In this document: positions 300 to 40,286 of the stretch, piece after piece | How positions within the stretch are numbered: position 1 is the first letter of the stretch | How the letters are laid out: each line of letters begins with the position of its first letter | Source: a virus | Virus record (IMG/VR): IMGVR_UViG_3300020202_000026 | Span: 1-45,602 of that record | Strand: one strand, 5' to 3' | DNA: 45,602 nucleotides | Translations under genes and position numbers: made by a program | Notes under the pieces: model-generated | The model's database searches: none | The model's input: the letters and a program-made list of their open reading frames with translations, nothing else | What the model was told of the DNA's origin: nothing

Positions 300-1205
300 A
301 TGCCACCTATTAATACAAGTACTGTAGTGGATACCCTCGACGCCAATCTTAACCAAATATGGTTAGATGGAACCAGTATGTGGCCCGAGGAGTATTCCAA
401 GGTTTTTAATGTTTTAAGTTCAACCAAACAAACCGAGAAGGACAGTTATCTTTCTGGGTTCGGGGCAATGCCTGAAAAGACAGAAGGTGCCGCTGCTACA
501 TACGACACCATTCTGCCGGGTATTGCGGAAACTTATACCCACAAGACTTATGCTTTGGGGTATGAGATTACTGAGGAAGCAGTTGAAGATAATCTCTACA
601 CCACTGAGACCTTTAACAAACTTCCCAAGGCGCTTGATAAAAGTGCTATGCATACCGTTGAGACGACAGCGTTCAACGTGTTTAACAATGGATTTTCCAC
701 TAATGGGCTTGATGGCGTTCCGTTATTTAATACCGCCCACCCAATGCTGGATGGATCAACTCAAGCCAATAGGCCAACTACGGATGCTGATTTGTCCGTG
801 ACATCCTTGACGGCTGGCTTGACCACGATTGATAAATACGTTGATGAGCGTGGCTTAAAACAACCGACCAAGGCAGTTATGCTCTTGATCCCGGTTGATC
901 TTTGGAATACCGCTGAAGAGCTGATTAAGTCTGAGTATAAACCTTATGTTGCTAATAACGAGGTTAATGCTTTACAGTCTAAAGACCTTCAGTATTTCAA
1001 GAGCCATTACCTGACTGACACGGATGCATTTTACTTGCTGTCAGAAAAAGAGAATCATATGTTGAATTTCTATTGGCGCGTTCGTTTAGGTCCGTTACGC
1101 CGGGGAACCGACTTTGATTCTACTAATCTTAAGCATCTGGCACGTATGCGCTTCTCTGTTGGTTATTCTCATTGGAAAGGCACTTACGGAAGCCGCGGGG
1201 CTTAA
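300..1205 (+). CDS. Major capsid protein (Mu gpT-like)
   Basis: A 301-residue protein that should form the icosahedral shell. It starts at ATG 300, nine bases after the strong ribosome site AAGGAGG at 284-290. The sequence resembles the Mu gpT major head subunit family: a helical N-terminus with the WPEEYSKVF segment, then YALGYEITEEAVEDN, a central LFNTAHPMLDG loop, and a C-terminal WRVRLGPLRRGTDF strand. It follows scaffold and decoration genes, as expected for a head module. No prohead-protease signature is visible in or beside it. The family call is by sequence feel rather than a search. Confidence 0.85.
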   Translation: MPPINTSTVVDTLDANLNQIWLDGTSMWPEEYSKVFNVLSSTKQTEKDSYLSGFGAMPEKTEGAAATYDTILPGIAETYTHKTYALGYEITEEAVEDNLYTTETFNKLPKALDKSAMHTVETTAFNVFNNGFSTNGLDGVPLFNTAHPMLDGSTQANRPTTDADLSVTSLTAGLTTIDKYVDERGLKQPTKAVMLLIPVDLWNTAEELIKSEYKPYVANNEVNALQSKDLQYFKSHYLTDTDAFYLLSEKENHMLNFYWRVRLGPLRRGTDFDSTNLKHLARMRFSVGYSHWKGTYGSRGA

Positions 1206-1220: not shown

Positions 1221-1562
1221 ATGCCAAAAAAAGCATTGTCAATCTTTTTAGCTCTGATGGTTATTTCGACATTGGCGTTCGCTCAATCGGCCAGAAACCC
1301 TCAGTATGACCACGCCGGAAAATCTAACTTTACCAATCTAAGCGTCACCGGGTTAGATGTCACTGGAAATCGTGGTTATATTGAATTGGTTTCACCAGAT
1401 GAGAGAGGGGATGTTTTCTCGTACTATTTATGGGTAGATTCAGACGGAAAGCTTAGGGTTGCTTCTTATGCAACGGTTAGTGCTTTCTCTAGTTTCCCGA
1501 CGGGAAATTTAAATCTTCCTGAATTCTGTCCAAATTGTACAATTGTCGGAAATCAAAGCTAA
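1221..1562 (+). CDS. Exported 113-residue protein of the head module
   Basis: A small protein with a clear Sec signal peptide: MPKKA, a hydrophobic core, and a probable cut after AFA at residue 21. The mature part contains beta-rich repeats (NLSVTGLDVTGNRGYIEL) like those of phage fibres, and a CPNC pair near the end. The ribosome site GGAGGG lies just before ATG 1221. It sits between the capsid and O-antigen polymerase genes. No family is recognised. It could be a secreted envelope factor or an externally added virion part. Confidence 0.7.
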   Translation: MPKKALSIFLALMVISTLAFAQSARNPQYDHAGKSNFTNLSVTGLDVTGNRGYIELVSPDERGDVFSYYLWVDSDGKLRVASYATVSAFSSFPTGNLNLPEFCPNCTIVGNQS

Positions 1563-1602
1563 GAATGGAAGCGGAGGGGGAGTAAAATCCCCCTCCATTC
1601 TT
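1561..1602 (+). promoter_or_regulatory. Strong RNA hairpin covering the polymerase start region
   Basis: GGAGGGGGA (1573-1581) pairs with TCCCCCTCC (1588-1596), and AAGAAT (1561-1566) pairs with ATTCTT (1597-1602). This gives 15 base pairs with one six-base bulge. It begins at the upstream stop codon and ends at the base before ATG 1603. It has no T-run, so it is unlikely to be a terminator. The only purine-rich ribosome-site-like stretch near this start is locked in the stem, suggesting translational control. Confidence 0.6.
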
Positions 1603-2856
1603 ATGAAAGAAAATTTATTTAAACTAGTAAGGTTCTCAGTTTTTGGTGTTCCTCTGGCTGGATTAATCCCAATAGAGGGAACAGATGTATGGTATTCACA
1701 GTTTTTGGGATTGATGTCTTTATTAATGATTGGGCTATCCATTGCTCTTTGGAAATTCAATAAAGGTTTCTCAGTGTTTGGGCTAGTATGCTTGTTTTCC
1801 TCTATGGTTGTAGCCAACCAAAGCCCAAAATCCTTGATTACTTTAATACAAATTTATTTGGCTTTCCTAGCAATTTATGCGATCAGTCGCTTTGAAAAGG
1901 ATCAGCGGAAAGCCTTAATTAGGGCCGTTCTCGTATTGGTATCAATCCAGGGGGTTTGGGTTATACTTCAAGCCTTAAATTTAGACCCAATATTCAATTT
2001 AATGGGAAATCCCAACAAAGATGACACTGTTGGCATATCCGGAAGCCATAATCAGCTTGGGTTATTCTTCGCAATGACCGCACCAATTGTCCTGCTTAAT
2101 GCTATCTATCTCTTACCGTTTACGCTAGTTGGACTTTGGTTCTCAACTACGGCAACAGCATGGATTGGGTTTGTAGTATTTTTAATTTTCTGGATTTCGA
2201 TAAAACTTAAGAGTAAGGCGGCTGTCTATTTATTGTTTTTTGGGTTGATGGTTTGTTTGATCTCAGGATTTAATAGAATCTCTGATATTGTCAAGACGGA
2301 GAGATTTAATCTTTGGCGGAGTTCAATTGATCAAGTCCTGAGTGGTCGGGCTATCATTAAGCAGGCTGATCTTTCTAGGCTTAATGGCAAAGAGAAGATT
2401 GAATACATTTCAATCAAGGAAATTAACTGCAACCCTCTATTTGGTTTTGGTCTTGGCAATTTCATCAGGATTTCACCGCATACGCAAGAGTACGTCACCT
2501 TCGCCCATAGGTACGAGCACGCGCATAATGATTACGTAGAAGCTCTCTTTGAGCTTGGCATAACAGGATTCCTATTCTTAATGGTGATGATTGGAAAGTT
2601 CTTGCGAGATTTTTTTTACGCCCAAAGGACGAAGCTCTTAACTTCAGTGTTCTTGGCGATTGTTGTCCAAATGGTTTGTGCAATGGGGGTTTATACAATT
2701 CAGACCGCTATATCTGGGATGTTAATGATTCTATTCTTAGGGTTGTTTTATGGAGAATTAAGAGACCAGCGATGGGAGGATCAAAATGGGAAGATTGCCC
2801 CCGTGGGCGAAAGGACAGCTACGCAATTGCGTGATCTGCGGTTGGTGGTTTCCTGA
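1603..2856 (+). CDS. O-antigen polymerase/ligase-like membrane protein (Wzy_C type)
   Basis: A 417-residue protein with about ten to twelve hydrophobic segments. It carries the Wzy_C-type signature HAHNDYVEALFELGITG (residues 306-322) and a second SHNQLGLFF segment near 148-156. Such inner-membrane proteins polymerise or ligate lipid-linked O-antigen on the periplasmic side. In a phage it probably alters surface polysaccharide, blocking re-adsorption or converting the serotype. The frame is open from TTG 1543, but ATG 1603, directly after the hairpin, gives a more natural start. Being inside the late head module is odd, since lysogenic conversion genes usually lie near the integrase. Confidence 0.85.
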   Translation: MKENLFKLVRFSVFGVPLAGLIPIEGTDVWYSQFLGLMSLLMIGLSIALWKFNKGFSVFGLVCLFSSMVVANQSPKSLITLIQIYLAFLAIYAISRFEKDQRKALIRAVLVLVSIQGVWVILQALNLDPIFNLMGNPNKDDTVGISGSHNQLGLFFAMTAPIVLLNAIYLLPFTLVGLWFSTTATAWIGFVVFLIFWISIKLKSKAAVYLLFFGLMVCLISGFNRISDIVKTERFNLWRSSIDQVLSGRAIIKQADLSRLNGKEKIEYISIKEINCNPLFGFGLGNFIRISPHTQEYVTFAHRYEHAHNDYVEALFELGITGFLFLMVMIGKFLRDFFYAQRTKLLTSVFLAIVVQMVCAMGVYTIQTAISGMLMILFLGLFYGELRDQRWEDQNGKIAPVGERTATQLRDLRLVVS

Positions 2857-2965
2857 ACGAGACGTAAAAATACGGAAAAGAGACGGTAAATGGGTTTGTA
2901 AATGGGATTATGATGAGCTTTTAGAGAAGGAACGTATAGAGGCTATTCAAAGGAGGAGTCAATGA
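2786..2965 (+). CDS. Small cysteine-containing protein (59 residues)
   Basis: Starts at ATG 2786, five bases after GGGAGGA, and overlaps the 3' end of the polymerase gene in another frame. It has CVICGWWFPE followed by WVCKWDYDELLEKER: a CxxC pair with one further Cys, a partial zinc-finger pattern. The tail is charged and helical. Its stop overlaps the next gene (ATGA type), so the genes are translationally coupled. Function unknown. Good ribosome site and coupling support a real gene. Confidence 0.7.
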   Translation: MGRLPPWAKGQLRNCVICGWWFPERDVKIRKRDGKWVCKWDYDELLEKERIEAIQRRSQ

Positions 2966-3321
2966 AAGTTTTATGGGTGTATTTAATTATTGCTATTTTG
3001 CTGTTAGGTAACCCAGTGCAGGCCGATGTAATCTCCCCGAGAACAAACGTCTACGCAAGCTGGGTTAATGTTACGGCGGCGCATACAATTACTTTCCCTT
3101 ATGTTTCTAGGGATATTATGATCAACAACGGTTCTGCTAATGGTATCTGCGTTAATATCCGTGGCGGGAGTGTTGATGCAAGTTGCCGCCAAGACACAGA
3201 TGATAGTATTCAATTGCCCGGAAATTCATCGCTCAATCTCACGGATTTTATTACATCTTCAATCAGCTTTGCTCCGTTATCAGCATCGGCAAGTCCTGTG
3301 AGTGTTGTTGTGACGTACTAG
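2962..3321 (+). CDS. Exported 119-residue protein
   Basis: Begins with a Sec signal peptide: MKVLWVYLIIAILLLGNPVQA, probable cleavage after the final Ala. The mature part is beta-rich, with NVYASWVNVTAAHTITFPY and a later NSSLNLTDF segment, and two Cys (CVNIRG, ASCRQD) that could form a disulphide in the periplasm. RBS AGGAGG lies at 2951-2956. It ends just before a terminator-like hairpin, so it closes a transcriptional subunit with the capsid gene. No family recognised. It may be a virion part added after export. Confidence 0.7.
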   Translation: MKVLWVYLIIAILLLGNPVQADVISPRTNVYASWVNVTAAHTITFPYVSRDIMINNGSANGICVNIRGGSVDASCRQDTDDSIQLPGNSSLNLTDFITSSISFAPLSASASPVSVVVTY

Positions 3322-3345
3322 TCAGTTAGAGGTAGCTTAAAAATC

Positions 3346-3384
3346 AAGCCCTCAATGGTCCAAATGGCCATTGGGGGCTTTTTT
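3346..3384 (+). terminator. Terminator-like hairpin, copy 1 of a family
   Basis: AAGCCCTCAATGG pairs with CCATTGGGGGCTT (13 pairs, one G-T), with a nine-base loop and a six-T run at 3379-3384. It lies 14 bases before the next start codon, inside the late operon. Its flank AGCTTAAAAA and stem base are nearly the same as in the hairpin at 43339. Confidence 0.85.
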
Positions 3385-3397
3385 ATTTGGAGAATGA

Positions 3398-4348
3398 ATG
3401 TATAACTTCGACGAGCTAAAAGATAACGTAGCAAAGTTGGCCCAGAGATCAGGTGATTCGGATTACGAGTCAAAGATTGGCATTTGGCTGAATCTGTCTC
3501 TTGAGACTCTCTATAACGTCTATGATTGGTGGCTTGAGCTTCGAGAGAGATATGATTTCACCTCCGTTGATGGCCAAGCAGATTACGGGATGCCGCCACA
3601 ATTTGACAAGCCATTACTATTTTGGGACCGCACAAATGACAAGCTGATCACCATTAGAACGGAGGAAGAATACACTAAGGACAACTTAGCCAATATCAAT
3701 GATTCGACTGAGGGTGATGTCAATTTTGGATATTTGATTGGGGTTTCCGGGGCGAAGAAACAAGTCAGCACGAGTGGGAGCACAGTTAAGGCTAAAAGCT
3801 CTACCTCTGAAACCGGCTCTGGGATTACTGTCCGTATAGAAGGATATGTAGATTCTGATTTATCAATTGTTGATTATGAAAATATAGTGGTCACCGGGAC
3901 TTCCTATGTGGCTGGGACAAAGACATTTTATAAGATTCTTCATTTTTCAAAGTCTGGCGACAGCGAAGGATATATCACCCTTGCGGATGCTTCCAGCAAT
4001 ATTTTGGCTAATCTAGGGTCAAAAGACAGAGTGGGCCATCACAAAATCTTTCGTCTAGGCCTAATCCCTGACGATTCAGTCACCAATTATCGAATCCTTT
4101 ACAAAAAGAAATTCCGAAAAATGGTCAATGACTACGATTACCCATTTGTTGAAGCCGATGAGTTTTTGACGCTCAATTCGCTTGGTTATGCTTTGTCAGA
4201 GGAGAAAGAAACATCTGAACGGGCAGTGCTCGTTTGGAATAAGGCAAAAGAGGCGTTGAATTTGATTTTGACCAATCAGCAAATGAAGCATGGCCCAGAA
4301 TATCAACACAAAATGGTAAGCGTATTCGCGCAAGCCCATAGACGATGA
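3398..4348 (+). CDS. Head-tail connector / P22 gp4-like adaptor
   Basis: A 316-residue protein. The N-terminal 80 residues (YNFDELKDNVAKLAQRSG, then WLNLSLETLYNVYDWW) and the C-terminal helix (FVEADEFLTLNSLGYALSEE) resemble podovirus head-closure adaptors that bind under the portal. Between them is a Ser/Gly-rich segment at about 120-220 (SGSTVKAKSSTSETG onwards) that looks like an inserted beta domain, making the protein longer than the usual 150-200 residues. It has no signal peptide, unlike the next gene. The stop overlaps the next start. Confidence 0.6.
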   Translation: MYNFDELKDNVAKLAQRSGDSDYESKIGIWLNLSLETLYNVYDWWLELRERYDFTSVDGQADYGMPPQFDKPLLFWDRTNDKLITIRTEEEYTKDNLANINDSTEGDVNFGYLIGVSGAKKQVSTSGSTVKAKSSTSETGSGITVRIEGYVDSDLSIVDYENIVVTGTSYVAGTKTFYKILHFSKSGDSEGYITLADASSNILANLGSKDRVGHHKIFRLGLIPDDSVTNYRILYKKKFRKMVNDYDYPFVEADEFLTLNSLGYALSEEKETSERAVLVWNKAKEALNLILTNQQMKHGPEYQHKMVSVFAQAHRR

Positions 4349-5961
4349 GAAGAATTAAAAATTTACTTTTTGCGTTAACTCTAGCGGCGCTATCCGCCAC
4401 TAACGCTCTTTCTCAGGAAGCCCTACTTAAGGTTAGGATCAACGATTTTTCTGGGGGGATGGTTTCTAATTCCCTTGCAGATGTTATTGCCCCAAATCAG
4501 GGCGCTTCAATGGTCAATGTGGAGCTTAACCGTCCTGGCCGATTATCAAAGCGCAAGGGGCAAGCCTTATTTGCTAGAGACGTTGGAAGCACTCCATTTG
4601 TTGGCATTGGTCGATTTGATCCTGACCGCACTACGTCATATTTAGTTGCGGCCTCAGGCACAAGGGTTGTTCGGGCTTTATCATCCAGCGCAGACTGGAC
4701 AGTGGCTAATCCATCAAATGCCCTTACCGCCGGGCAGAATACAGAATTTGTTCAAGCCAATGATTTACTGTTCATTCTCAATGGTTTTGACTCGACGGCA
4801 TGGTATAGCGGGTCACATTGGTCTACGGCAGGGGCCTATCCAACTTCGCCACCTACCGCAAGAACTGGGGCATGGCTTAGAAACTATCTGTTTTTGGCTG
4901 GGGCAACGACTGAAACAGATTGGGTATACTTCTCGAATAATCTTGACCCAGACACTTTCAGCAGTGGTGACATCATCAAGATCAACACAGGTGATGGGCA
5001 ATCCATTCAGAAGGTTGTTCCATTCAGGCTTAATGAGTTAATTATTTATAAGGAACGAAGTGTATTTGTTTTAGACATCACAGGGTCAACGCCATTATCA
5101 GACTGGACAGTCCAGCCAGTTTCAACGGTAGTCGGCACCATTGCCCCTCGTTCGGTTGTAAGTCTTGGGAATGACCAATGGTTCCTATCCAGTGAGCCGA
5201 TAGCTATTCGTAGTCTTGTCCGCTCAGAATTTGACAAGATTCTGTTAAATCTAGTTTCTGGCCCTATCCAAGACGTTTTCGATGGCACCGGGATATTAAC
5301 TATCAACAAGACTCATATCTCCAAGGCTGCGGCAACGTTATTTAATAACAAGTATTTTCTGGCTGTTCCTACAGGAACATCTACCGTTAATAATACGGTT
5401 TTTGTTTATGATTTCATTACCAATGGATGGTATCGCATTGATGGATGGTTCCCGGCTGATTGGGTGGTTTTTGATAACAGGCTCTTTTACATAGACGCAA
5501 ATGATGGTCGCGTTATTGAGTGCTTTTCTGGAACTGCTGGCGATTGGCCTCAAGGCCCTGGGACGATAGATTCAGCCTCAACGCCTTCTGTTGGGATTGC
5601 TTTTAATTATATAACCAAAAATATAGATTTTGATTATCCAGAAAATTTTAAACAATTGGACTCTTTGGAAGTTGAGTTTGACGCTACGGGAGATTATAAC
5701 GCGGAAGTCTTTGTGAATTTAGATAGCGATGGCTGGCAGAGAGTTGGTACGGTGAATCTAGCCGGAAACTCTTTGACATTGCCAGTAACTTTACCAGCCA
5801 CTTTAGGGAATGGTGGGTTAGCCAGGAAAACCTTTCAATTAACCCAATATGGCGAGTTCAAAAAAATGCAGGTAATGGTTCAGCAATGGGCGTCGTCAAC
5901 GAATGTGACATTGCAAAGAATCACGATTTTCTCAAGGCTTAAACCGTGGAGACGTGAATGA
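4345..5961 (+). CDS. Tail protein, P22 gp10-like, with a signal peptide
   Basis: A 538-residue protein. Residues 29-60 (RINDFSGGMVSNSLADVI, then NVELNRPGRLSKRKG) match the start of tail hub / packaged-DNA stabilisation proteins of podoviruses, followed by beta-propeller-like repeats (TTSYLVAASGTRVVRAL, LLFILNGFDSTAWY). Unusually it starts with MRRIKNLLFALTLAAL and a probable signal-peptidase site after ALS at residue 23. The ATG overlaps the upstream stop (ATGA), and no in-frame ATG with a ribosome site lies between the hydrophobic stretch and the conserved domain, so the leader is translated. This protein should cap the head-tail neck. Confidence 0.65.
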   Translation: MRRIKNLLFALTLAALSATNALSQEALLKVRINDFSGGMVSNSLADVIAPNQGASMVNVELNRPGRLSKRKGQALFARDVGSTPFVGIGRFDPDRTTSYLVAASGTRVVRALSSSADWTVANPSNALTAGQNTEFVQANDLLFILNGFDSTAWYSGSHWSTAGAYPTSPPTARTGAWLRNYLFLAGATTETDWVYFSNNLDPDTFSSGDIIKINTGDGQSIQKVVPFRLNELIIYKERSVFVLDITGSTPLSDWTVQPVSTVVGTIAPRSVVSLGNDQWFLSSEPIAIRSLVRSEFDKILLNLVSGPIQDVFDGTGILTINKTHISKAAATLFNNKYFLAVPTGTSTVNNTVFVYDFITNGWYRIDGWFPADWVVFDNRLFYIDANDGRVIECFSGTAGDWPQGPGTIDSASTPSVGIAFNYITKNIDFDYPENFKQLDSLEVEFDATGDYNAEVFVNLDSDGWQRVGTVNLAGNSLTLPVTLPATLGNGGLARKTFQLTQYGEFKKMQVMVQQWASSTNVTLQRITIFSRLKPWRRE

Positions 5962-7085
5962 GGCAGTTATTATTAATAATTTTGTTGCTTATTAGTTCTT
6001 CGGCTTACGCCGGGACTGTAAGCATGCCTCAATATAACGCCAATGATACGCTAACAGATTTAAATCTAAATCTCCGTTGGAATTTACTTTCCAACGAAAT
6101 TAACGGTGGCCTTGACAATACAAATGCAGACACAGCAGGGGGGTTTAGATTCCATGAGATTCTTGGCTCATTACCAGCCGCGGGCAATCAAGGGCGGGTT
6201 GTTTTTTTAACTGCCAATAACACGTTAAATTTCGATACTGGATCAGATTTTGTTCAGGTTCCAGCTATAACAGGAGCAGTTGGCGGGACAATTGTTCAAT
6301 ATAACGGCTCTACTTGGATTGGGACAAACCCAGGCACAATTGATTATCCTTTTGTTAGTAATGGTTCTGGCAATACTGGTGCGTATGAGCAATTGAAATT
6401 AACGACGGCGGTTCAGGGTCAGCTACCACTTGCCAATGGGGGAACAGCCGCCAATTTAACCGATCCGAATGCAGATCGAATATTATTTTGGGATGATTCA
6501 GCTGGACAAGTTACCTTTTTGACGGCTGGAACTGGTTTGGAACTTTCTGGAACAACTTTGACGACAACTCACAAGCTTGTTTCAACTACCTCAGTTTCGA
6601 CTGCTACAGCTAGTTCCGATATTTCAATCACGAACACCAAATATTATTTGGTTAATGTAGTGATTACCGCAACCAGTGCAACGACCTCTGGATTTGGGAT
6701 CAGATTTAACAGTGGTGTTTCAACGAACACCTATGGATATATTTATCGTGGGTTTGATTTAGGAGGCACTGCACAGGATGGCGCCGTTACTTTAGGTTCA
6801 GCCGCATATATCCAAACGAATGCAACTGCGGGGGTTAGTGCTACTACCGACACTTATTATTTTTTACAGTTTTACATTTACCCTCAATCAACCCTCGACC
6901 AAAAGCATCAAACGGTTCGAGGGACTACTTGGGGGCGTACAAATTCAGGTAACGATGGATATTCTGAGTTCATGGGGAGTTGGAACCCGAGCGCTTCGAC
7001 TGTGACTGACTTTAGAATTATCACGACAGATGGGGCAACAACTTATTCAGGAACGATTTATTTATATGAGATTCCACTAAGCTAG
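5958..7085 (+). CDS. Tail fibre / spike-like protein with a signal peptide
   Basis: A 375-residue protein. MRQLLLIILLLISSSAYA is a textbook Sec leader, cleaved after residue 18. The mature part is Thr/Gly/Asn-rich and beta-prone, with fibre phrases such as QLPLANGGTAANLTDPNADR, FLTAGTGLELSGTTLTTTH and a C-terminal jelly-roll-like region ending YSGTIYLYEIPLS. The ATG overlaps the preceding stop, so translation is coupled to the gp10-like gene. Tail fibres do not normally carry export signals. Probable role: receptor binding or the distal tail tip. Confidence 0.6.
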   Translation: MRQLLLIILLLISSSAYAGTVSMPQYNANDTLTDLNLNLRWNLLSNEINGGLDNTNADTAGGFRFHEILGSLPAAGNQGRVVFLTANNTLNFDTGSDFVQVPAITGAVGGTIVQYNGSTWIGTNPGTIDYPFVSNGSGNTGAYEQLKLTTAVQGQLPLANGGTAANLTDPNADRILFWDDSAGQVTFLTAGTGLELSGTTLTTTHKLVSTTSVSTATASSDISITNTKYYLVNVVITATSATTSGFGIRFNSGVSTNTYGYIYRGFDLGGTAQDGAVTLGSAAYIQTNATAGVSATTDTYYFLQFYIYPQSTLDQKHQTVRGTTWGRTNSGNDGYSEFMGSWNPSASTVTDFRIITTDGATTYSGTIYLYEIPLS

Positions 7086-7095
7086 GAGGTTTTAG

Positions 7096-7965
7096 ATGGG
7101 TTTATTTGGCGGCAAGAAAGCACCAACAATAAATATTCCTGCACCACCGAAGTTGCCAACCGCAGAGGAGCTTTACGCGCAAGCGTTGGGATATGCTAGG
7201 CGTGAACAACCCTTAGGGTTTGGAGCGAGGGAGTCAGCTTTAAGTGACTTGAATTTAGGCAATGCCTATTTTGACAGGTTCCAGCCATCTTCATTTGAAC
7301 AGGCTTTAGGTAATCAGTATTTTCAAAACATTATGCCGGATTTGGAGAGATCGATTAAACACAATCTTTCGCTGTCAGGGACAATCAATTCCCCGCTTTT
7401 GGCAGATCAAATTGCCAAGGCGAGAGGGCAAGTTGGGTTTGACGTTGGAAGCTACTTGTCAAATATAGCTAATCAAAGAGCATTGACTAGCCTGAATTCT
7501 CGATTGAACATTTCCCCCGAATCTATCATTAATCCGTTTATAGAAACTGGCATGAATCAGGCCAATAAGCAGGCAGACCTTAGTTACCAAGGGGCCTTGA
7601 TGCAAGCACAAGCGGATTATCAAAATGCGATGCAAAAGTATAACCAGAGCAACGCCAAAAGAGCTTTAATTGGTTCAGTGCTAGGTGGCGTCGCTGGTTC
7701 ATTCAGTGGGCCGGGAGGCGCAGCAATGGGTTCTTCCATTGGCGGAACTTTAGCGGGCGGTGGTGCTGCTCAATCGCCAGTTAGTTTTGGTGATGCCTTA
7801 TCAATTTATCAAGCATTTAGTCCATCACAGCCGGGGTTTGCGCGTGCAGGGTTTAATGGTTATGGGAAAAATACTCCATTTGGTGTTTACAACACCGGGA
7901 GCACGAGTATTTTACCCGGTAAGGTTCCAATGGGAATGTCTCAACCTGTATACATGATGAACTAG
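7096..7965 (+). CDS. Putative DNA-ejection / internal virion protein A
   Basis: A 289-residue protein with a Pro-rich N-terminus, a helical core (QKYNQSNAKRALIGSVLGG) and a Gly/Ala-rich glycine-zipper region at about 200-230 (GSFSGPGGAAMGSSIGG) of the kind found in membrane-penetrating ejection proteins. It has a strong AGGAGG ribosome site and no signal peptide. It is the first of three consecutive genes in the place where P22-like phages encode ejection proteins gp7, gp20 and gp16. No detectable lysozyme motif. Role inferred from position and composition. Confidence 0.5.
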   Translation: MGLFGGKKAPTINIPAPPKLPTAEELYAQALGYARREQPLGFGARESALSDLNLGNAYFDRFQPSSFEQALGNQYFQNIMPDLERSIKHNLSLSGTINSPLLADQIAKARGQVGFDVGSYLSNIANQRALTSLNSRLNISPESIINPFIETGMNQANKQADLSYQGALMQAQADYQNAMQKYNQSNAKRALIGSVLGGVAGSFSGPGGAAMGSSIGGTLAGGGAAQSPVSFGDALSIYQAFSPSQPGFARAGFNGYGKNTPFGVYNTGSTSILPGKVPMGMSQPVYMMN

Positions 7966-7974
7966 GGGGAAAAG

Positions 7975-8886
7975 ATGGCTGATTGGGTAGGAATGAATGA
8001 TCAATTTAGAGATATTGGGTCTGCGTTGGGGGGGTATGCGCGCCAGAAGATAGACCGTAGACAAACGCTTGAGGATGCAATTGCATTGGCAACGGCTAAG
8101 GCGCAGATTGAACGTCAATTTAAATCTCCTTACGAGGATTTAATAAACTTTGGCAAGGTTGCAGAAGTGTTTGACGGAATGGGAATTCCTATAGGAAGCG
8201 TTATGGGCGGAAATTCTAGCATGGGGGCATCCTTAAATGCTAACCCAAGCACTCCTTCTTTTGGACAATCCTTGCAAAATCCGGCAGCTATGACGCCTTT
8301 TGCAACTCCGCAAGCTCCCGTGACGGGTGGTGTTGATCCAGCAACTTTGATCCCCGAAAGTTTTGAACGAACTACGTTTGGGGGATTTAGGCCAAAGAGT
8401 TATTTTAATCCTGAGGCGGAGAGACAGAAAAAAATCACAGAAAAACTTGTTGCTGGGCCAGGGGCTGATTTGGCTGGTCGAGTTACTTTAGCAAAAGAAT
8501 CATTGAAAAATATAAAGGATATTAAAAATATTCTATTTCCTAAGGGTGATACCAAATCATTTAAACGATTTGTTGCTTTTGGATCGAATTTGCCAGGCCC
8601 TGGCAAGAAATTGCCATTCAATAAAAACGCTCAAGATGTTCATAGAAAAATGGGCGCAGCATTATCTGGAAGGCTTCTTATCCAAACAGGCGTAGCGGCT
8701 AGTCCTGGGGAAAGAGAAAATTTAATATCTCAATTTGCTCCAAATGCTTTTAGTAATCCTGATTCAGCTATGAATGCCCTTAATGAACTGGAAACATTCT
8801 ATAAGACATTTTTAGGTGAATCCGACCCTGAAACAAGATTTGGTCAGCCACAGAACAATCAAAATGACCCGTTAGGACTTCGATAA
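7975..8886 (+). CDS. Putative DNA-ejection protein B
   Basis: A 303-residue soluble protein, helical at both ends. It has a low-complexity middle at about 75-125 (GGNSSMGASLNANPSTPSFG) and a C-terminal helical half including GRLLIQTGVAASPGEREN. The C-terminal part reads like the helical bundle found next to ejection proteins in metagenomic podoviruses. It follows the preceding gene by 9 bases, with a GGGGGAAAAG leader, and precedes the largest virion gene. No catalytic motif seen. Confidence 0.5.
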   Translation: MADWVGMNDQFRDIGSALGGYARQKIDRRQTLEDAIALATAKAQIERQFKSPYEDLINFGKVAEVFDGMGIPIGSVMGGNSSMGASLNANPSTPSFGQSLQNPAAMTPFATPQAPVTGGVDPATLIPESFERTTFGGFRPKSYFNPEAERQKKITEKLVAGPGADLAGRVTLAKESLKNIKDIKNILFPKGDTKSFKRFVAFGSNLPGPGKKLPFNKNAQDVHRKMGAALSGRLLIQTGVAASPGERENLISQFAPNAFSNPDSAMNALNELETFYKTFLGESDPETRFGQPQNNQNDPLGLR

Positions 8887-8895
8887 GGAGCAAGA

Positions 8896-10788
8896 ATGGC
8901 AGTTGCCGAAATTCAAAAATTTCGAGAAAAATATCCGCAGTACAATGACTTGGATGACATGACAATTGCTGGTAAATTATCCCAAAAATATCCAGATGCT
9001 TATGGAGATTTAGTTGGGAAGGTGAAGTCTGAGTCAAAACCTCAAGAAAAATTTTTAAAGCCTATCTTGCCTAGCCCAGAGGATGATACTCTCTATAAGC
9101 CAGGTACGTTTATGGACAGATATTCAAGATTTGAGAGGGGGGTAGCGAAAGATATCCTTACTGTCCCAGCACATTTTATTAATCAATTTGCCCTTAACTA
9201 CCCAAGAGATTTAATGAATAAAGCTGGTTTTGAATACCCAGAGAAGGCTACTTCACCAGTAATGCAAGGATTGGCATACGGGGCTGGCGTAGTGGGTGGA
9301 TTTAAAAACCCGCTATTTAAATCTATTCAAGGGGCAGGATTTTTGAAGAAAGCTCCTGAATTGCTTAAAACGTCTGTTGCAGGCGGTGGTACCGCAGGAG
9401 CATATTCCCAACCAACCGAAGACAGATTGACAAGTGCTGGGATTGGTTTTTCTTTTCCATTCGGAGCGAAGGCAGTTCAAAAGGGTGGTGAATTTGTCGG
9501 TAAATTCGGAAAGTTTGCCGCAAAAAATATTACTGGCATTACCGATGACATGAATTCTTGGATAAAAACAAGGGGGATTGATCGAGTTCTTGAACCAACT
9601 AAACAGAGCGTTGATTATGTGAAAACAACGTTGTTGCCTAGAGCTTATAGTATTGTTCAGGAGAATATTAAAAAGTTCTCTGAGCCAATCCAAAAATTTG
9701 CTGAAAGCAAGGGGATTGCGCCTTCAGCAATAAAATCAATTAAAACCAAGGGCGTTGATCATATAAATGTCGTTCGTGAACAGTTGGGAGATTCTACAGA
9801 CCCAATTTATCAGCGAATCCTTTCTGGAATAGAAACTAGGAATAGGCAAGTAGAGGATGCTTACGAACAGGCATTTTCTAAACTTAGAGGGAGAAGTGCC
9901 ATCATCCCAATGAGCAGAACAAAACGAGCGATGGGGAAACTGTTGCGTAAATCTGGGTATTTCGATGCTAAAAATAGACCTACAAAAATGGCAGAAAACG
10001 ATATTTCAGAGAATTCCGTTTTGCGAAACGTTCTAGGGTTTTATCAATCTCTGGATATCAAAGCACCTAGAGGAGTTAGTGGAATTACCCCTTTCCAGTG
10101 GAATCTTTTTAGAAACACCTTATCCAGGGCAAGAGGTAGAGACAAATCGTTATCTGGGGAGATAAAGTCTATTTTGGATTCCTTGCACACTGATGCAGAA
10201 AAAGGTGGGCTGAAAGGAATTAAAAAGGCCAGACAATTAGCCCGAGAAAATTTCGCCGCTGATGATTTTATAAACGATTCATTAATAAAGGAAAAAAAGC
10301 TAGATAGGTACCATAAGCTCTCAGAGCAAGAAAAACGTACCCTGAAGGCTATAGAGGATTTTACGGGTGTTCAGTTTATTGATGACCTTGATTCGTTGGT
10401 GGCGGCTCGCGAAATTGACAAACTTACGGATATCAAATTGGATACAATGGCAAATGAGTTGCAGCGGGCATCTGATCCTAAAAACTTTCAATTTATAAAG
10501 CAAAAGTATCAGGGTCTATTTGGCGATAAAGCAGATGAAATTTTTGATGACATAAAAGATCACATTATCGCTTTGAAATTAAGCAAAGAGCCTGATACAC
10601 CAGCTGGATTGGTCGGGTTGGCCAGTAGGGCGAGCGCCGAGATAACAAAAGAATCTGCAAAAAAGTTTTACCGATTTAAGGAGCGCGCAAGGAAGGGGCC
10701 GAATCGTCTTCGGAGGTTTGGTCAGTTTTCTGCCCAGGGAGTTCAGAGAGCACCCAAAAGGTACCCTTTTTCACGAGAGGAAGAGTAA
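8896..10788 (+). CDS. Large internal virion / ejection protein C
   Basis: A 630-residue protein. Residues 5-38 (IQKFREKYPQYNDLDDMTIA, KYPDAYGDL) form the YPQYND module common at the N-terminus of phage internal virion proteins. Then come an amphipathic Gly/Ala-rich region at about 120-210 (GLAYGAGVVGGF, SVAGGGTAGAYSQPTEDR), a long helical body and a basic C-terminus. Protease- or lysozyme-type active sites are not obvious. It ends the tail/ejection block. Its last 113 bases overlap a gene on the opposite strand. Confidence 0.6.
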   Translation: MAVAEIQKFREKYPQYNDLDDMTIAGKLSQKYPDAYGDLVGKVKSESKPQEKFLKPILPSPEDDTLYKPGTFMDRYSRFERGVAKDILTVPAHFINQFALNYPRDLMNKAGFEYPEKATSPVMQGLAYGAGVVGGFKNPLFKSIQGAGFLKKAPELLKTSVAGGGTAGAYSQPTEDRLTSAGIGFSFPFGAKAVQKGGEFVGKFGKFAAKNITGITDDMNSWIKTRGIDRVLEPTKQSVDYVKTTLLPRAYSIVQENIKKFSEPIQKFAESKGIAPSAIKSIKTKGVDHINVVREQLGDSTDPIYQRILSGIETRNRQVEDAYEQAFSKLRGRSAIIPMSRTKRAMGKLLRKSGYFDAKNRPTKMAENDISENSVLRNVLGFYQSLDIKAPRGVSGITPFQWNLFRNTLSRARGRDKSLSGEIKSILDSLHTDAEKGGLKGIKKARQLARENFAADDFINDSLIKEKKLDRYHKLSEQEKRTLKAIEDFTGVQFIDDLDSLVAAREIDKLTDIKLDTMANELQRASDPKNFQFIKQKYQGLFGDKADEIFDDIKDHIIALKLSKEPDTPAGLVGLASRASAEITKESAKKFYRFKERARKGPNRLRRFGQFSAQGVQRAPKRYPFSREEE

Positions 10789-10963
10789 AAAAGGCTATGA
10801 TCGATAAATAAATAGCTTTAATCCAGTGGAATTTTTTAAAAAGATTGATAGATGTATAGACTCTTGTTCTTAAAAATCTGAACATGAACCAACAAAAAAG
10901 TCCGACAATGATTATGAGCTTAAGAAAGCTAAATGCTGTTGCTACCCAAAGTTCTATACTCAT
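10676..10963 (-). CDS. Small two-helix membrane protein (moron, gene 2)
   Basis: A 95-residue protein with two hydrophobic segments (FLKLIIIVGLFCWFMFRFL and IKAIYLSIIAFFTLPLV) and a charged tail rich in Asp/Ser. Its ATG overlaps the TGA of the lipoprotein gene (ATGA), so the two form an operon on the minus strand. The last 113 bases run antisense to the ejection protein gene. A minus-strand pair inside a plus-strand late operon is typical of a moron expressed from the prophage. Possibly a superinfection-exclusion factor; not recognised. Confidence 0.6.
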   Translation of the reverse strand: MSIELWVATAFSFLKLIIIVGLFCWFMFRFLRTRVYTSINLFKKFHWIKAIYLSIIAFFTLPLVKKGTFWVLSELPGQKTDQTSEDDSAPSLRAP

Positions 10964-11328
10964 GGGGTATATGGCTCCCCAAACTGGTTTAAAGTGTTGT
11001 TTTCGACTTGAAGGATATTATTTGTTTCAAATTGAATCTGGCCGTCATTAGTGTTGGGGAAGGAGCGATAATGACCGTATTTAATGACTTTGTTGTCGCG
11101 GATCATCACCCAATATTGTTCTTTGTTTAGAAGCCCAGAATAAGCTCTAGGCATGAATAAATATTCTAAAATTTCGGTGTCAGATTCGGCATAAACGGAA
11201 TTAGGTGAGCCTAGTTTTTGGATAACCCCGTCCCTGGACATTCCGAGATGGATAGAATTGAGCTTAGAGGCGGTGACGCAAGAGGAAAGGCAAGCAGCAA
11301 GCAATATTAGAGTAAGTACCCTAATCAT
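10960..11328 (-). CDS. BamE/SmpA-like outer-membrane lipoprotein (moron, gene 1)
   Basis: A 122-residue protein with a lipoprotein signal: MIRVLTLILLAACLSSC, lipobox LSSC, lipidated Cys17. It is followed by LNSIHLGMSRDGVIQKLGSP, the small alpha-beta repeat of the SmpA/OmlA/BamE fold. It probably sits in the outer-membrane inner leaflet or periplasm and could block a receptor or shield the lysogen. The start codon lies at the expected transcription start of the promoter at 11335-11363, with no ribosome site, suggesting a leaderless message. Confidence 0.7.
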   Translation of the reverse strand: MIRVLTLILLAACLSSCVTASKLNSIHLGMSRDGVIQKLGSPNSVYAESDTEILEYLFMPRAYSGLLNKEQYWVMIRDNKVIKYGHYRSFPNTNDGQIQFETNNILQVENNTLNQFGEPYTP

Positions 11329-11334
11329 GAGAGG

Positions 11335-11363
11335 AATATACCATAGGGTAGATTAAGACGCAA
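11335..11363 (-). promoter_or_regulatory. Sigma70-type promoter of the moron pair
   Basis: On the minus strand TTGCGT (11363-11358) and TATATT (11340-11335) are separated by 17 bases. Initiation about seven bases downstream would fall on or next to the lipoprotein ATG at 11328. Confidence 0.5.
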
Positions 11364-11388
11364 TAAATTTGAGGCATCTGTAAAACAC

Positions 11389-11428
11389 AGCCCTCAGGTG
11401 GACGAAATGTCCGCTTGAGGGCTTTTTT
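11389..11428 (+). terminator. Terminator-like hairpin, copy 2 of a family
   Basis: AGCCCTCAGGTGGAC pairs with GTCCGCTTGAGGGCT (15 pairs including two G-T), with loop GAAAT and six T at 11423-11428. It ends about 22 bases before the next start codon. The stem base AGCCCTCA/TGAGGGCT and the TTTTTTATT tail match the other copies. Confidence 0.85.
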
Positions 11429-11450
11429 ATTGACTACAAAGGAGAGAGGA

Positions 11451-12047
11451 ATGAAGAAAATTTTAATTTTGCTTATCGTTTTGGCCCCCACTCTAGCTTT
11501 TGCAGGTGGAAGTTTCGATAGTGGGGGAGGACTCACAAATCCACTCGGTTCCGATTTAGATTTGGGTGGAAAGATGATTGAATCCAATTCTGGTGGGATT
11601 CAATTCGATTCCAACGACGATGGAACTACAGACCACATTATGACCTCTGGGGGAAACGTCGGGATAGGCTCCACAAACCCAGGCGTGAAATTAGATATTA
11701 ATGGTGCTGTGCGAGGGGATATTTTTGCTCCCGTGAATATTCCAGTTATCGAACCAGTGTCGAATAAGGCTATTAGGTTTAAGCTCGGGCGGGCTTTTAC
11801 CGTCACCAGTGGCGAGTGCTATACAGACACCGGGACTGTAGTTGTAACTCCCCAGGAATGCAATTCGGCTTACGCCAGTTGTACAAATATTGCTGGGCAA
11901 AAAACATGTGATTCTAACGGAGAAACGTTCACCTTTACGGACACCGCAATTGCGGCCGATGCCGGATGGAATGTTGGGATCGGAACTGTTGCATCCAGCC
12001 CAGGAAATTTAGTCATCACAATTAACGGAGAACGAAAGAGCTACTAA
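11451..12047 (+). CDS. Exported tail-fibre-like protein
   Basis: A 198-residue protein. ATG 11451 directly follows a GGAGAGAGGA ribosome site. MKKILILLIVLAPTLAFA is a Sec signal peptide, cut after residue 18. Then come fibre-type repeats: GSDLDLGGKMIESNSGGIQF and NVGIGSTNPGVKLDING, the latter a common motif in phage tail fibres and bacterial adhesins just before a C-terminal domain. Four Cys in the C-terminal half (SGECYT, PQECNS, ASCTN, KTCDS) could form disulphides, which fits an oxidising compartment. Stop and next start overlap (TAATG). Confidence 0.65.
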   Translation: MKKILILLIVLAPTLAFAGGSFDSGGGLTNPLGSDLDLGGKMIESNSGGIQFDSNDDGTTDHIMTSGGNVGIGSTNPGVKLDINGAVRGDIFAPVNIPVIEPVSNKAIRFKLGRAFTVTSGECYTDTGTVVVTPQECNSAYASCTNIAGQKTCDSNGETFTFTDTAIAADAGWNVGIGTVASSPGNLVITINGERKSY

Positions 12048-12796
12048 TGAAAAAGTTATTACTATCATTTTTTCTCTTATTTTTTTCCTGTCAGTTTGCT
12101 TATGCTGCGTGTGACACCAACACGCAGTTAATGCTGCACTTAAATGGCACGGACGGGTCGACGACGATCACGGATTCGTCTCCCAGTCCGAAAACCGTCA
12201 CTGTAGCAGGAAACGCACAAATAGATACGGCCCAATCCGTGTTCGGCGGAGCTTCTGGCTTATTTGATGGGACAGGTGATTATCTAGAAAGTGCAGATAA
12301 CGCTGCCTGGCAGTTGGGCGGGGGGACAGGAGCCTTTACCATAGATTTTCGGGTAAGGTTTGCCGCCTTCGCAGCTATAAATCAATTCTTCTCCCAAATT
12401 AACGATGCTGAAACTGATGGATGGGTATTTTATTATTTTAATACTAGCAATCAGATAAGATTTATAAGTTACACAAGCTCGGCGCAAACTCTGCTATCGA
12501 AAAGCTGGACACCATCTTTGGACACCTGGTATCACATAGCCCTTGTCCGCTCTGGGAATACTTGGAGATTTTTTGTTGATGGTACCCAGCTTGGTACGGA
12601 TATCACAGACACAGTGACTATCCCCAATACAGCCAACAGGCTTCTAATTGGAGCAGCCCATGAAACAACTCCCAGTGAATTTATAAATGGCTGGATAGAT
12701 GAGGCTCGCATTTCCAATGAAGCTCGCTTCGGCGGTAATTTTACCCCCTCCGGGTCAGAGTACTGCGGGGGAAGCAAAGTAATGATTATCCAATAA
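12047..12796 (+). CDS. Exported LamG / concanavalin-like lectin protein
   Basis: A 249-residue protein. MKKLLLSFFLLFFSCQFAYA is a signal peptide. The rest is one LamG/ConA-like lectin domain: LMLHLNGTDGSTTITDSSP, SVFGGASGLFDGTGDYLES, FTIDFRVRF, WYHIALVRSGNTWRFFVDG, GWIDEARISNEARF. Such domains bind glycans. Translation is coupled to the preceding fibre gene. With the O-antigen polymerase in the same operon it suggests surface glycan recognition. It could be a virion adhesin or a secreted host-envelope protein. Confidence 0.75.
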   Translation: MKKLLLSFFLLFFSCQFAYAACDTNTQLMLHLNGTDGSTTITDSSPSPKTVTVAGNAQIDTAQSVFGGASGLFDGTGDYLESADNAAWQLGGGTGAFTIDFRVRFAAFAAINQFFSQINDAETDGWVFYYFNTSNQIRFISYTSSAQTLLSKSWTPSLDTWYHIALVRSGNTWRFFVDGTQLGTDITDTVTIPNTANRLLIGAAHETTPSEFINGWIDEARISNEARFGGNFTPSGSEYCGGSKVMIIQ

Positions 12797-36219: not shown

Positions 36220-36308
36220 TGCGCCGAAACGCCCTGCGGGGCGTCCCGTTGGACTGATCGCCAACGGCTGACGAGGCAGATCAACTCGAGCGGGCCCGGA
36301 CGATGCCT
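36220..36308 (+). ncRNA. Structured GC-rich spacer RNA
   Basis: Hairpins ACGCCC-TGCG-GGGCGT (36229-36244) and CCGTTGG/CCAACGG (36246-36267) are followed by GGCA (36275-36278) paired with TGCC (36304-36307) around a GGGCCC core. It lies between two genes of the accessory unit, just before the 36326 start. It could control translation or RNA processing. Confidence 0.45.
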
Positions 36309-39501: not shown

Positions 39502-39693
39502 ATGCTTATTCATATATCCAAAGAAACTGCAATTAATCCCAAGTTTGTTACAGGCGTTCATGAATACGAGAAGAAAAATGAGGCTGGACAGTTTGAGCTT
39601 ACAGTTGTGGTGTATGTGAGTGGTTCGGGTGCTTTTCAGTCTTCGTACTTATTTGAAGAGACTGTAAAAATGATTGAAAAAGGCGGTGCGTAA
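39502..39693 (+). CDS. Small head-module protein (63 residues)
   Basis: LIHISKETAINPKFVTGVHE, ELTVVVYVSGSGAFQSSYLF: a small beta-rich protein with a helical end. AAGGACG precedes the ATG. Stop overlaps the GroES-like start (TAATG). Function unknown; similar small proteins sit beside phage chaperonins. Confidence 0.55.
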   Translation: MLIHISKETAINPKFVTGVHEYEKKNEAGQFELTVVVYVSGSGAFQSSYLFEETVKMIEKGGA

Positions 39694-40286
39694 TGGGTAG
39701 GACTGAACGTGGCCTCAAAGGAATGCAATACGAAAAGAAGCGTTTCACCGTTATGGGTGGAGGTTCTGACTTTAAAGTTGGTGGCGTGAGTGCTGAAGAA
39801 TCAGAGCGGATTCAAAAGGAAAAAGAAGCGGAGTCCAAAAAGGTCAACCAAGACCTTGCGACCATAAGAAACGCCAAAGCAGGCAAGCGGGTCATTCCTT
39901 ATGGTGATCGCATTCTGGTCAAGCGTAAGGTCATTGGGGAAAAGATTGGGGCTGGGATTTTGTATGCCCCTGAAACAGCATCAAGCCGTCCAATGGATAT
40001 AGCAAAGATTATCTATGTCCCAGACAATAGCTTTGCTGATGAGCAGTTGATTAAAGAGGCAGATTCAATTATCGCGGCCTTAACGGAGAAATCCAAGTCA
40101 GGTGATTCCGAAGCATTAAAGGCATTATTGGAATTCAATATTTACTTAAAGATTAAGTGCCTTCAGCCCGGAGATGAAGTGATGATTGGGAAATATGTTG
40201 GGACAGACTTTATTGAAGGTGAAACCGGGCAAACTCTTACCTTGGTTCGTGGGGATGAAGTCATCGGAAAGGTTATTAGCCAATGA
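39693..40286 (+). CDS. GroES-like co-chaperonin
   Basis: A 197-residue protein, twice the size of bacterial GroES. Residues 1-65 are an extra charged N-terminal region (EESERIQKEKEAESKK). The Cpn10 core is IPYGDRILVKRKVIGEK, mobile loop GAGILYAPETASSRP (86-100), then a helical insert (KEADSIIAALTEKSKSGDSE) before the end LQPGDEVMIGKYVG, VRGDEVIGKVI. Like T4 gp31 it would pair with host GroEL to fold capsid protein. Lies just upstream of portal. Confidence 0.8.
   Translation: MGRTERGLKGMQYEKKRFTVMGGGSDFKVGGVSAEESERIQKEKEAESKKVNQDLATIRNAKAGKRVIPYGDRILVKRKVIGEKIGAGILYAPETASSRPMDIAKIIYVPDNSFADEQLIKEADSIIAALTEKSKSGDSEALKALLEFNIYLKIKCLQPGDEVMIGKYVGTDFIEGETGQTLTLVRGDEVIGKVISQ

Follow-up and report, generated by a model that had tools for sequence, protein, structure and literature searches.

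Sec signal peptides on the exterior but not the inner virion proteins suggest that a clade of short-tailed phages finishes its particle outside the bacterial cytoplasm

Tailed-phage virions are taken to form entirely within the cytoplasm, and the late region of the virus record IMGVR_UViG_3300020202_000026 raises the question of why six of its proteins open with Sec signal peptides (leaders). The window analysed here is the complete record (G000; 45,602 bp, with a direct terminal repeat of 127 bp) and looks like the genome of a temperate short-tailed phage, since it carries terminase, portal, major capsid protein, SU10-like adaptor, nozzle-family, fibre and ejection-type genes together with an integrase and a transglycosylase. 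Across a clade of related contigs from uncultured phages, leaders are found on the proteins expected at the virion exterior but on no inner ones, and a membrane sugar-transferase gene lies among them, which suggests that the particle is finished, perhaps sugar-coated, outside the bacterial cytoplasm. For this clade, a two-compartment assembly with heads made inside and the virion exterior exported is given a probability of roughly 60%. The genes on which the argument turns, named below by their start coordinates, are the following:

300..1205, plus strand: major capsid protein (Mu gpT-like), without leader, internal set; Pfam PF10124 at 8e-15, PHROG 371
1221..1562, plus strand: small protein, predicted exported, candidate capsid-surface (cement-like) protein; leader of about residues 1-21 (AFA before Q), kept in the clade
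1603..2856, plus strand: Wzy_C (GT-C type) polytopic membrane transferase of the O-antigen ligase / protein O-oligosaccharyltransferase superfamily; PF04932
2962..3321, plus strand: small jelly-roll protein, predicted exported; leader of about residues 1-21 (VQA before D); AlphaFold2 (AF2) model with a predicted local distance difference test (pLDDT) value of 91, all-beta
3398..4348, plus strand: head-tail adaptor (SU10-adaptor-like), without leader, internal set; PF24175 at 9e-6, slightly below the Pfam cut-off
4345..5961, plus strand: predicted tail nozzle ('phage stabilisation'/gp10-like) with a Sec leader of about residues 1-23 (ALS before Q); PHROG 3287, PHROG 5107
5958..7085, plus strand: tail fibre-type protein with a Sec leader of about residues 1-18 (AYA before G); N-terminal region and leader conserved in relatives
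7096..10788, plus strand: three ejection-type proteins (7096, 7975, 8896), without leaders, internal set; function read from place and size
11451..12047, plus strand: late protein, predicted exported by its leader call (AFA before G), with four Cys after the leader
12047..12796, plus strand: LamG/ConA-lectin domain protein (PF13385, 5.9e-19), predicted exported; leader (AYA before A), PHROG tail/baseplate matches

The six leaders read MPKKALSIFLALMVISTLAFA (1221, then Q), MKVLWVYLIIAILLLGNPVQA (2962, then D), MRRIKNLLFALTLAALSATNALS (4345, then Q), MRQLLLIILLLISSSAYA (5958, then G), MKKILILLIVLAPTLAFA (11451, then G) and MKKLLLSFFLLFFSCQFAYA (12047, then A). All of them combine a positive n-region with K/R, an uncharged hydrophobic core and a site of the A-x-A/A-x-S type with small residues at -3 and -1, the classic features of substrates of the Sec system and signal peptidase I, for which translocation and cleavage are predicted. 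Signal calls were made with a home-made rule-based predictor. Applied to Escherichia coli K-12 genes, it found yaaX and yaaI, both likely exported, and its false calls there were membrane proteins and the cytoplasmic carB. In the window it called all six leader proteins, so that calls fell on 6/12 late plus-strand genes versus 3/72 other genes; the capsid protein 300, the adaptor 3398 and the ejection-type proteins 7096, 7975 and 8896 received none. The preliminary description of this locus had proposed both that six late proteins begin with Sec signal peptides and that the connector (3398) and ejection proteins lack them, and each half of that proposal is borne out.

The nozzle and the capsid protein were used as queries in scans for relatives, which gave a clade of about 28 contigs in which the homologues of 1221, 2962, 4345 and 5958 bear Sec-type leaders. 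Few fibre and nozzle leaders were missed by the rules, and nearly all of these are plain by eye. Leaders also occur on large downstream genes at the place of a receptor-binding protein (L004 8214, L008 14047, L009 17391, L018 17390 and L031 14145). The capsid, adaptor and ejection families of the clade have none, and no adaptor in the comparison table has one. Within 12 kb after the capsid gene, calls were made for 85/194 clade genes versus 5/370 genes in 57 outgroup contigs (Fisher p ~1e-39, the contigs being related rather than independent). Seven annotated outgroup phages gave 3/122 calls, and P22, Bacteroides phage B40-8 and Cellulophaga phage phi38:1 together gave none among 41 structural genes. 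Mapped on the capsid tree (63 rows), the trait requires one change, on a single branch with 100/99 support. The preliminary description had held that homologues lacking the leader would speak against export; when this comparison was run, virtually all clade members kept it and only the outgroups were without. Two observations lie outside the clade. In Pelagibacter phage HTVC023P (L107 18475-20550), two late proteins in a row received signal-peptide calls, which may be a separate instance of late-protein export, and a distant capsid relative (L085 2416-3552) has a signal-peptide protein soon after the capsid gene, its nozzle being leaderless.

The nozzle allows the leader to be compared with the protein behind it. 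Among 23 clade nozzles, mean identity is 29% in the leader versus 51% in the following 60 residues; real leaders are called in 20/23 cases versus 3.9% of composition-shuffled ones. The uncalled nozzles are those of L004 and L024, whose leaders are clear by eye, and of L012, whose start is ambiguous. Every clade nozzle with a legible start carries a leader. Outgroup nozzles (L085, L104 (= ctKR88), L105, L106 (= HTVC033P) and L108 (= CRP-13)) begin at the mature protein itself. Because the leader diverges yet stays callable, because outgroups start at the mature protein and because PHROG 3287 aligns only from residue 30, the sequences indicate that it is an N-terminal addition retained for its properties.

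These data bear on two ways in which the leaders might mislead. That they are artefacts of wrong start codons or chance hydrophobic N-termini would suit the lack of a Shine-Dalgarno sequence of its own at the 4345 start, yet the start shares an ATGA with the stop codon of the adaptor gene, and an ATG does not recur until codon 39, within a conserved motif, which upholds the earlier claim that no internal start bypasses this leader. Strong GGAGG sites precede the other leader genes. With leader properties conserved over 23 nozzles and well above shuffles, and with the contrast between clade and outgroups, the start-codon artefact is rejected at the level of sequence and hardly deserves credence. 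Alternatively, the leaders could stay uncleaved as membrane pins or docking anchors, with heads gaining their tails at the inner membrane, as the preliminary description had also considered. Hydrophobic leaders could anchor, and membrane-docked assembly would explain the division between head and tail equally. However, small residues at -3 and -1 are kept across the clade just before the conserved domain, Q is very often at +1, and the first residues of outgroup nozzles correspond to the expected mature N-terminus. The retained cleavage motif makes pins the less likely choice, and this explanation is considered quite improbable. Export followed by leader cleavage is very probably correct by the same sequence features.

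Virion membership of the exported proteins is considered next. 4345 matches PHROG 3287 at 7e-13, with the alignment starting at residue 30, and PHROG 5107 at 8e-18. The gene lies directly 3' of the adaptor (PF24175), and nozzle relatives (H1-H3) are annotated as 'phage stabilization protein', although a nozzle profile search of the PDB returned no relative. By family relation and place, 4345 is a predicted nozzle of the gp10/gp12 type, and the fibre function of 5958 may be read from its gene place and divergent C-terminal part; both are very likely virion members on these grounds. It could be argued that all six are adhesins or decoys released by secretion rather than built into the virion, given the lectin domain of 12047 and the Sec leaders on all six. 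This is very unlikely, however, since 4345 matches virion-structural PHROG families and directly follows the adaptor, a second, leaderless nozzle was not seen in the late region, and one relative after another shows the trait across its entire exterior set.

The exported set probably extends beyond the tail. Directly after the capsid gene, 1221 has a 42-residue motif in common with a protein, without a leader, that is encoded right after the capsid gene of L050 (E 1.7e-12 among 54 such genes), a contig in the group nearest to the exported clade on the midpoint-rooted capsid tree. No PHROG or Pfam family was matched by 1221, and its predicted model was of low confidence and was not used for a fold search. 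It is probably a capsid-surface protein, judging by motif and position, and with this role plausible, the exported set would take in the virion exterior and not just the tail. The division into exported and internal proteins drawn in the preliminary description is therefore real and conserved across the clade, but it is probably not restricted to tail proteins, as the probable capsid-surface protein and Wzy_C come along. For 2962, the PDB fold search gave weak matches of the cupin/jelly-roll type only; structural matches in a viral library are better and are small, unannotated proteins of many tailed phages. Homology of 2962 to the small proteins that follow the capsid gene in outgroups was tried, and profile comparison gave no support.

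Cysteine content separates the two sets as well. Internal virion proteins have 0-0.19 Cys per 100 residues versus 0.97 in 1221, 1.32 in 2962 and 0.62 in the fibre. The two Cys of 2962 are both present in 8 sequences and both absent in 6, with a single Cys elsewhere in 1. This richness and pairing provide an independent hint of an oxidising compartment. Covariation among the fibre Cys gave no convincing pairs.

Between the exported genes 1221 and 2962 lies the Wzy_C gene (1603-2856), which the preliminary description had overlooked. Its labels for two neighbours are corrected as well: 4345 matches virion-structural PHROG families and 3398 is SU10-adaptor-like. Wzy_C holds this slot throughout the clade and is absent from it in outgroups, where the sole call (L083) is weak and partial; among an annotated phage collection, no relatives of Wzy_C were found. 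PF04932 was matched in 7/7 clade proteins tested, an HxHND motif and one Arg are invariant, and among solved structures the O-antigen ligase CmWaaL (7tpg, E 7.6e-9) comes closest. PF04932 and the conserved His/Arg together place the phage proteins in the Wzy_C superfamily by sequence. In TfpO, TfpM and PglS systems, substrate genes adjoin the enzyme gene (PMC12645811), PglL enzymes are recognised by gene adjacency and location outside lipopolysaccharide (LPS) loci (PMC3643930), and neither PglL_A nor Wzy_C_2 occurs in the TfpO and TfpM classes, whose genes stand beside those of their substrates (PMC12645811; PMC3643930). The phage gene resembles TfpO/TfpM genes in sequence and setting, as a Wzy_C protein without PglL_A that adjoins an exported candidate substrate. 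Glycosylation of exported virion proteins by Wzy_C is favoured because the enzyme lacks PglL_A and Wzy_C_2, has exported proteins as neighbours and is not part of an LPS locus; this role is put forward tentatively, at somewhat less than even odds. The C-terminal VGxQS/T of 1221, present in most of the clade and with a final S/T in 15/24 members, is a lead rather than a result, based on the modification of C-terminal Ser/Thr by TfpO/TfpM. The usual last residue of 2962 is Tyr. Two further observations concern this slot. In L031 (9982-18601), Wzy_C appears to be disrupted or to carry a frameshift, with three large genes that bear leaders standing between it and the 2962 homologue. In the window (~2762-2962, plus strand), a small Cys-containing zinc-ribbon-like open reading frame overlaps the 3' end of Wzy_C and is kept in L025 (47% over 59 residues).

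Expression signals in this part of the operon are the following:

1565..1600, plus strand: GC-rich terminator-like hairpin between 1221 and Wzy_C, GGAGGGGGA..TCCCCCTCC
3349..3386, plus strand: intrinsic terminator after 2962, a stem-loop followed by TTTTTT
11383..11428, plus strand: intrinsic terminator before 11451, a stem-loop followed by TTTTTTA

The hairpin between 1221 and Wzy_C (-16.6 to -32.8 kcal/mol) is present in 23/24 clade contigs; P22 likewise has an annotated stem-loop right after a head gene. Since this strong GC hairpin separates the two genes, the capsid protein and 1221 are probably co-expressed strongly, and Wzy_C less so.

The rival that weighs most on the enzyme accepts export as real and assigns Wzy_C to the host surface glycan, for late receptor masking, superinfection exclusion or serotype conversion, unrelated to the virion proteins. 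Wzy_C belongs to the O-antigen ligase superfamily with CmWaaL as its nearest solved structure, the phage is temperate by its integrase, and P22 has its own O-antigen conversion genes, gtrABC. Yet Wzy_C sits inside the virion operon behind the hairpin, where the interval from 1221 to its start leaves no space for its own promoter, the gene is a constant occupant of this slot across the clade alongside the exported set and was found in no outgroup, and conversion genes are, as a matter of general knowledge, usually separate accessory genes. Alteration of the host surface is thus a serious possibility, although a somewhat doubtful one.

Under the two-compartment explanation, the head shell, portal, scaffold, adaptor and ejection proteins would remain in the cytoplasm and yield filled, adaptor-closed heads. 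The exterior set (1221, 2962, the nozzle 4345, the fibre 5958 and the lectin/receptor-type 11451 and 12047) would be exported by the host Sec system, have its leaders cut off by signal peptidase I and fold once outside the cytoplasm, where the late Wzy_C of the same operon would transfer host undecaprenyl-linked glycan onto at least one exported protein. Heads and exterior proteins would meet when the inner membrane opens for lysis and join spontaneously. In classical phages, heads and tail parts made apart join in lysates, so that no new chemistry would be needed. The leaders, their conservation, their restriction to one protein set, the co-occurrence with Wzy_C and the single branch can be read directly from sequence, which by itself does not settle whether assembly takes place in the periplasm, at the membrane or once the cell has lysed; by analogy, joining at or after lysis is held to be somewhat the more probable. 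The most elaborate version, in which the complete exterior is exported, disulfide-bonded and O-glycosylated by Wzy_C, possibly at the VGxQS/T terminus of 1221, and joins the heads only when the membrane opens, appears unlikely as a whole.

Several points weigh against this explanation. The case for export rests on sequence and on a home-made rule-based predictor, and the argument that heads and exterior proteins would join spontaneously in a diluted lysate is one of analogy from general knowledge. As a capsid-surface protein, 1221 is proposed from one short motif and gene order, with a model of low confidence, and only 15 of its 24 members end in Ser/Thr. The nozzle Cys show no convincing pairing by covariation. 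For the enzyme, Pfam gives neither a PglL_A (PF15864) nor a Wzy_C_2 domain, which leaves it outside the PglL class, and its sequence cannot separate it from an O-antigen ligase.

Comparison with known systems shows where the clade would differ. The gene order of capsid protein, adaptor, nozzle, fibre and ejection proteins recalls the short tails of P22 (gp4-gp10-gp26-gp9) and T7 (gp11/gp12), but those tails are cytoplasmic and leaderless (0/13 signal calls in P22), as are outgroup nozzles, which start at the mature protein. Filamentous phage pIII and pVIII are generally known to enter the Sec pathway, to have a cleaved leader and to assemble outside the cytoplasm, the route predicted here from genes; unlike those phages, which have no capsid or terminase, a DNA-filled head would be made inside and only the exterior exported. 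With TfpO, TfpM, PglS, PglL and WaaL (PMC12645811, PMC3643930), the putative phage enzyme shares PF04932, the HxHND motif and a gene beside exported candidate substrates, but it is phage-encoded, lies in a virion operon and lacks PglL_A and Wzy_C_2. Virion glycosylation in the cytoplasm has its own parallel in the related phages ctKR88 and ctf1B273, which have glycosyltransferase genes near head and tail genes; those enzymes are soluble and the nozzles leaderless, in contrast to the membrane Wzy_C and exported proteins of the clade. The open-access literature searched yielded no account of tailed phages whose tail or capsid-surface proteins are exported by Sec. We know of no described precedent for a Sec-exported exterior in these phages.

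Additional features of the window are the following:

15227, minus strand: integrase
36222-36285, plus strand: type II hammerhead ribozyme in a phage genome, 49.6 bits versus an Rfam gathering score of 37
38051: terminase
39693-40286, plus strand: GroES-like co-chaperonin gene (PF00166), between terminase and portal
40510: portal
10676-11328, minus strand: two genes within the late operon, one for a BamE-like lipoprotein (PF04355, 5e-4) and one for a small membrane protein; both are candidate accessory genes expressed in lysogeny

The BamE-like lipoprotein and the transglycosylase point to a diderm bacterium as host. A scan for prophages in genomes recovered a clade member (L025) only in a metagenome-assembled genome labelled Euryarchaeota, in which no SecA or Omp85 match was found. 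Given this lack and the two window genes, L025 is probably mis-binned, which is likelier than an archaeal host. Two clade members have a capsid gene split at about residue 86 (L047 9681-9942, on the same contig as L020, and L005 4916-6508). The insert of L047 matches a group I intron at E 7e-6, under the gathering score, and that of L005 (~670 bp) matched no known RNA family.

If the two-compartment explanation is true, the clade would break the rule of all-cytoplasmic assembly for tailed phages, and the joining of head and tail would be separable by compartment. Virion proteins would then be open to the chemistry of the envelope, including disulfides and lipid-linked glycans, and the combination of leaders and Wzy_C in a late operon would serve as a sequence rule for finding more such phages.

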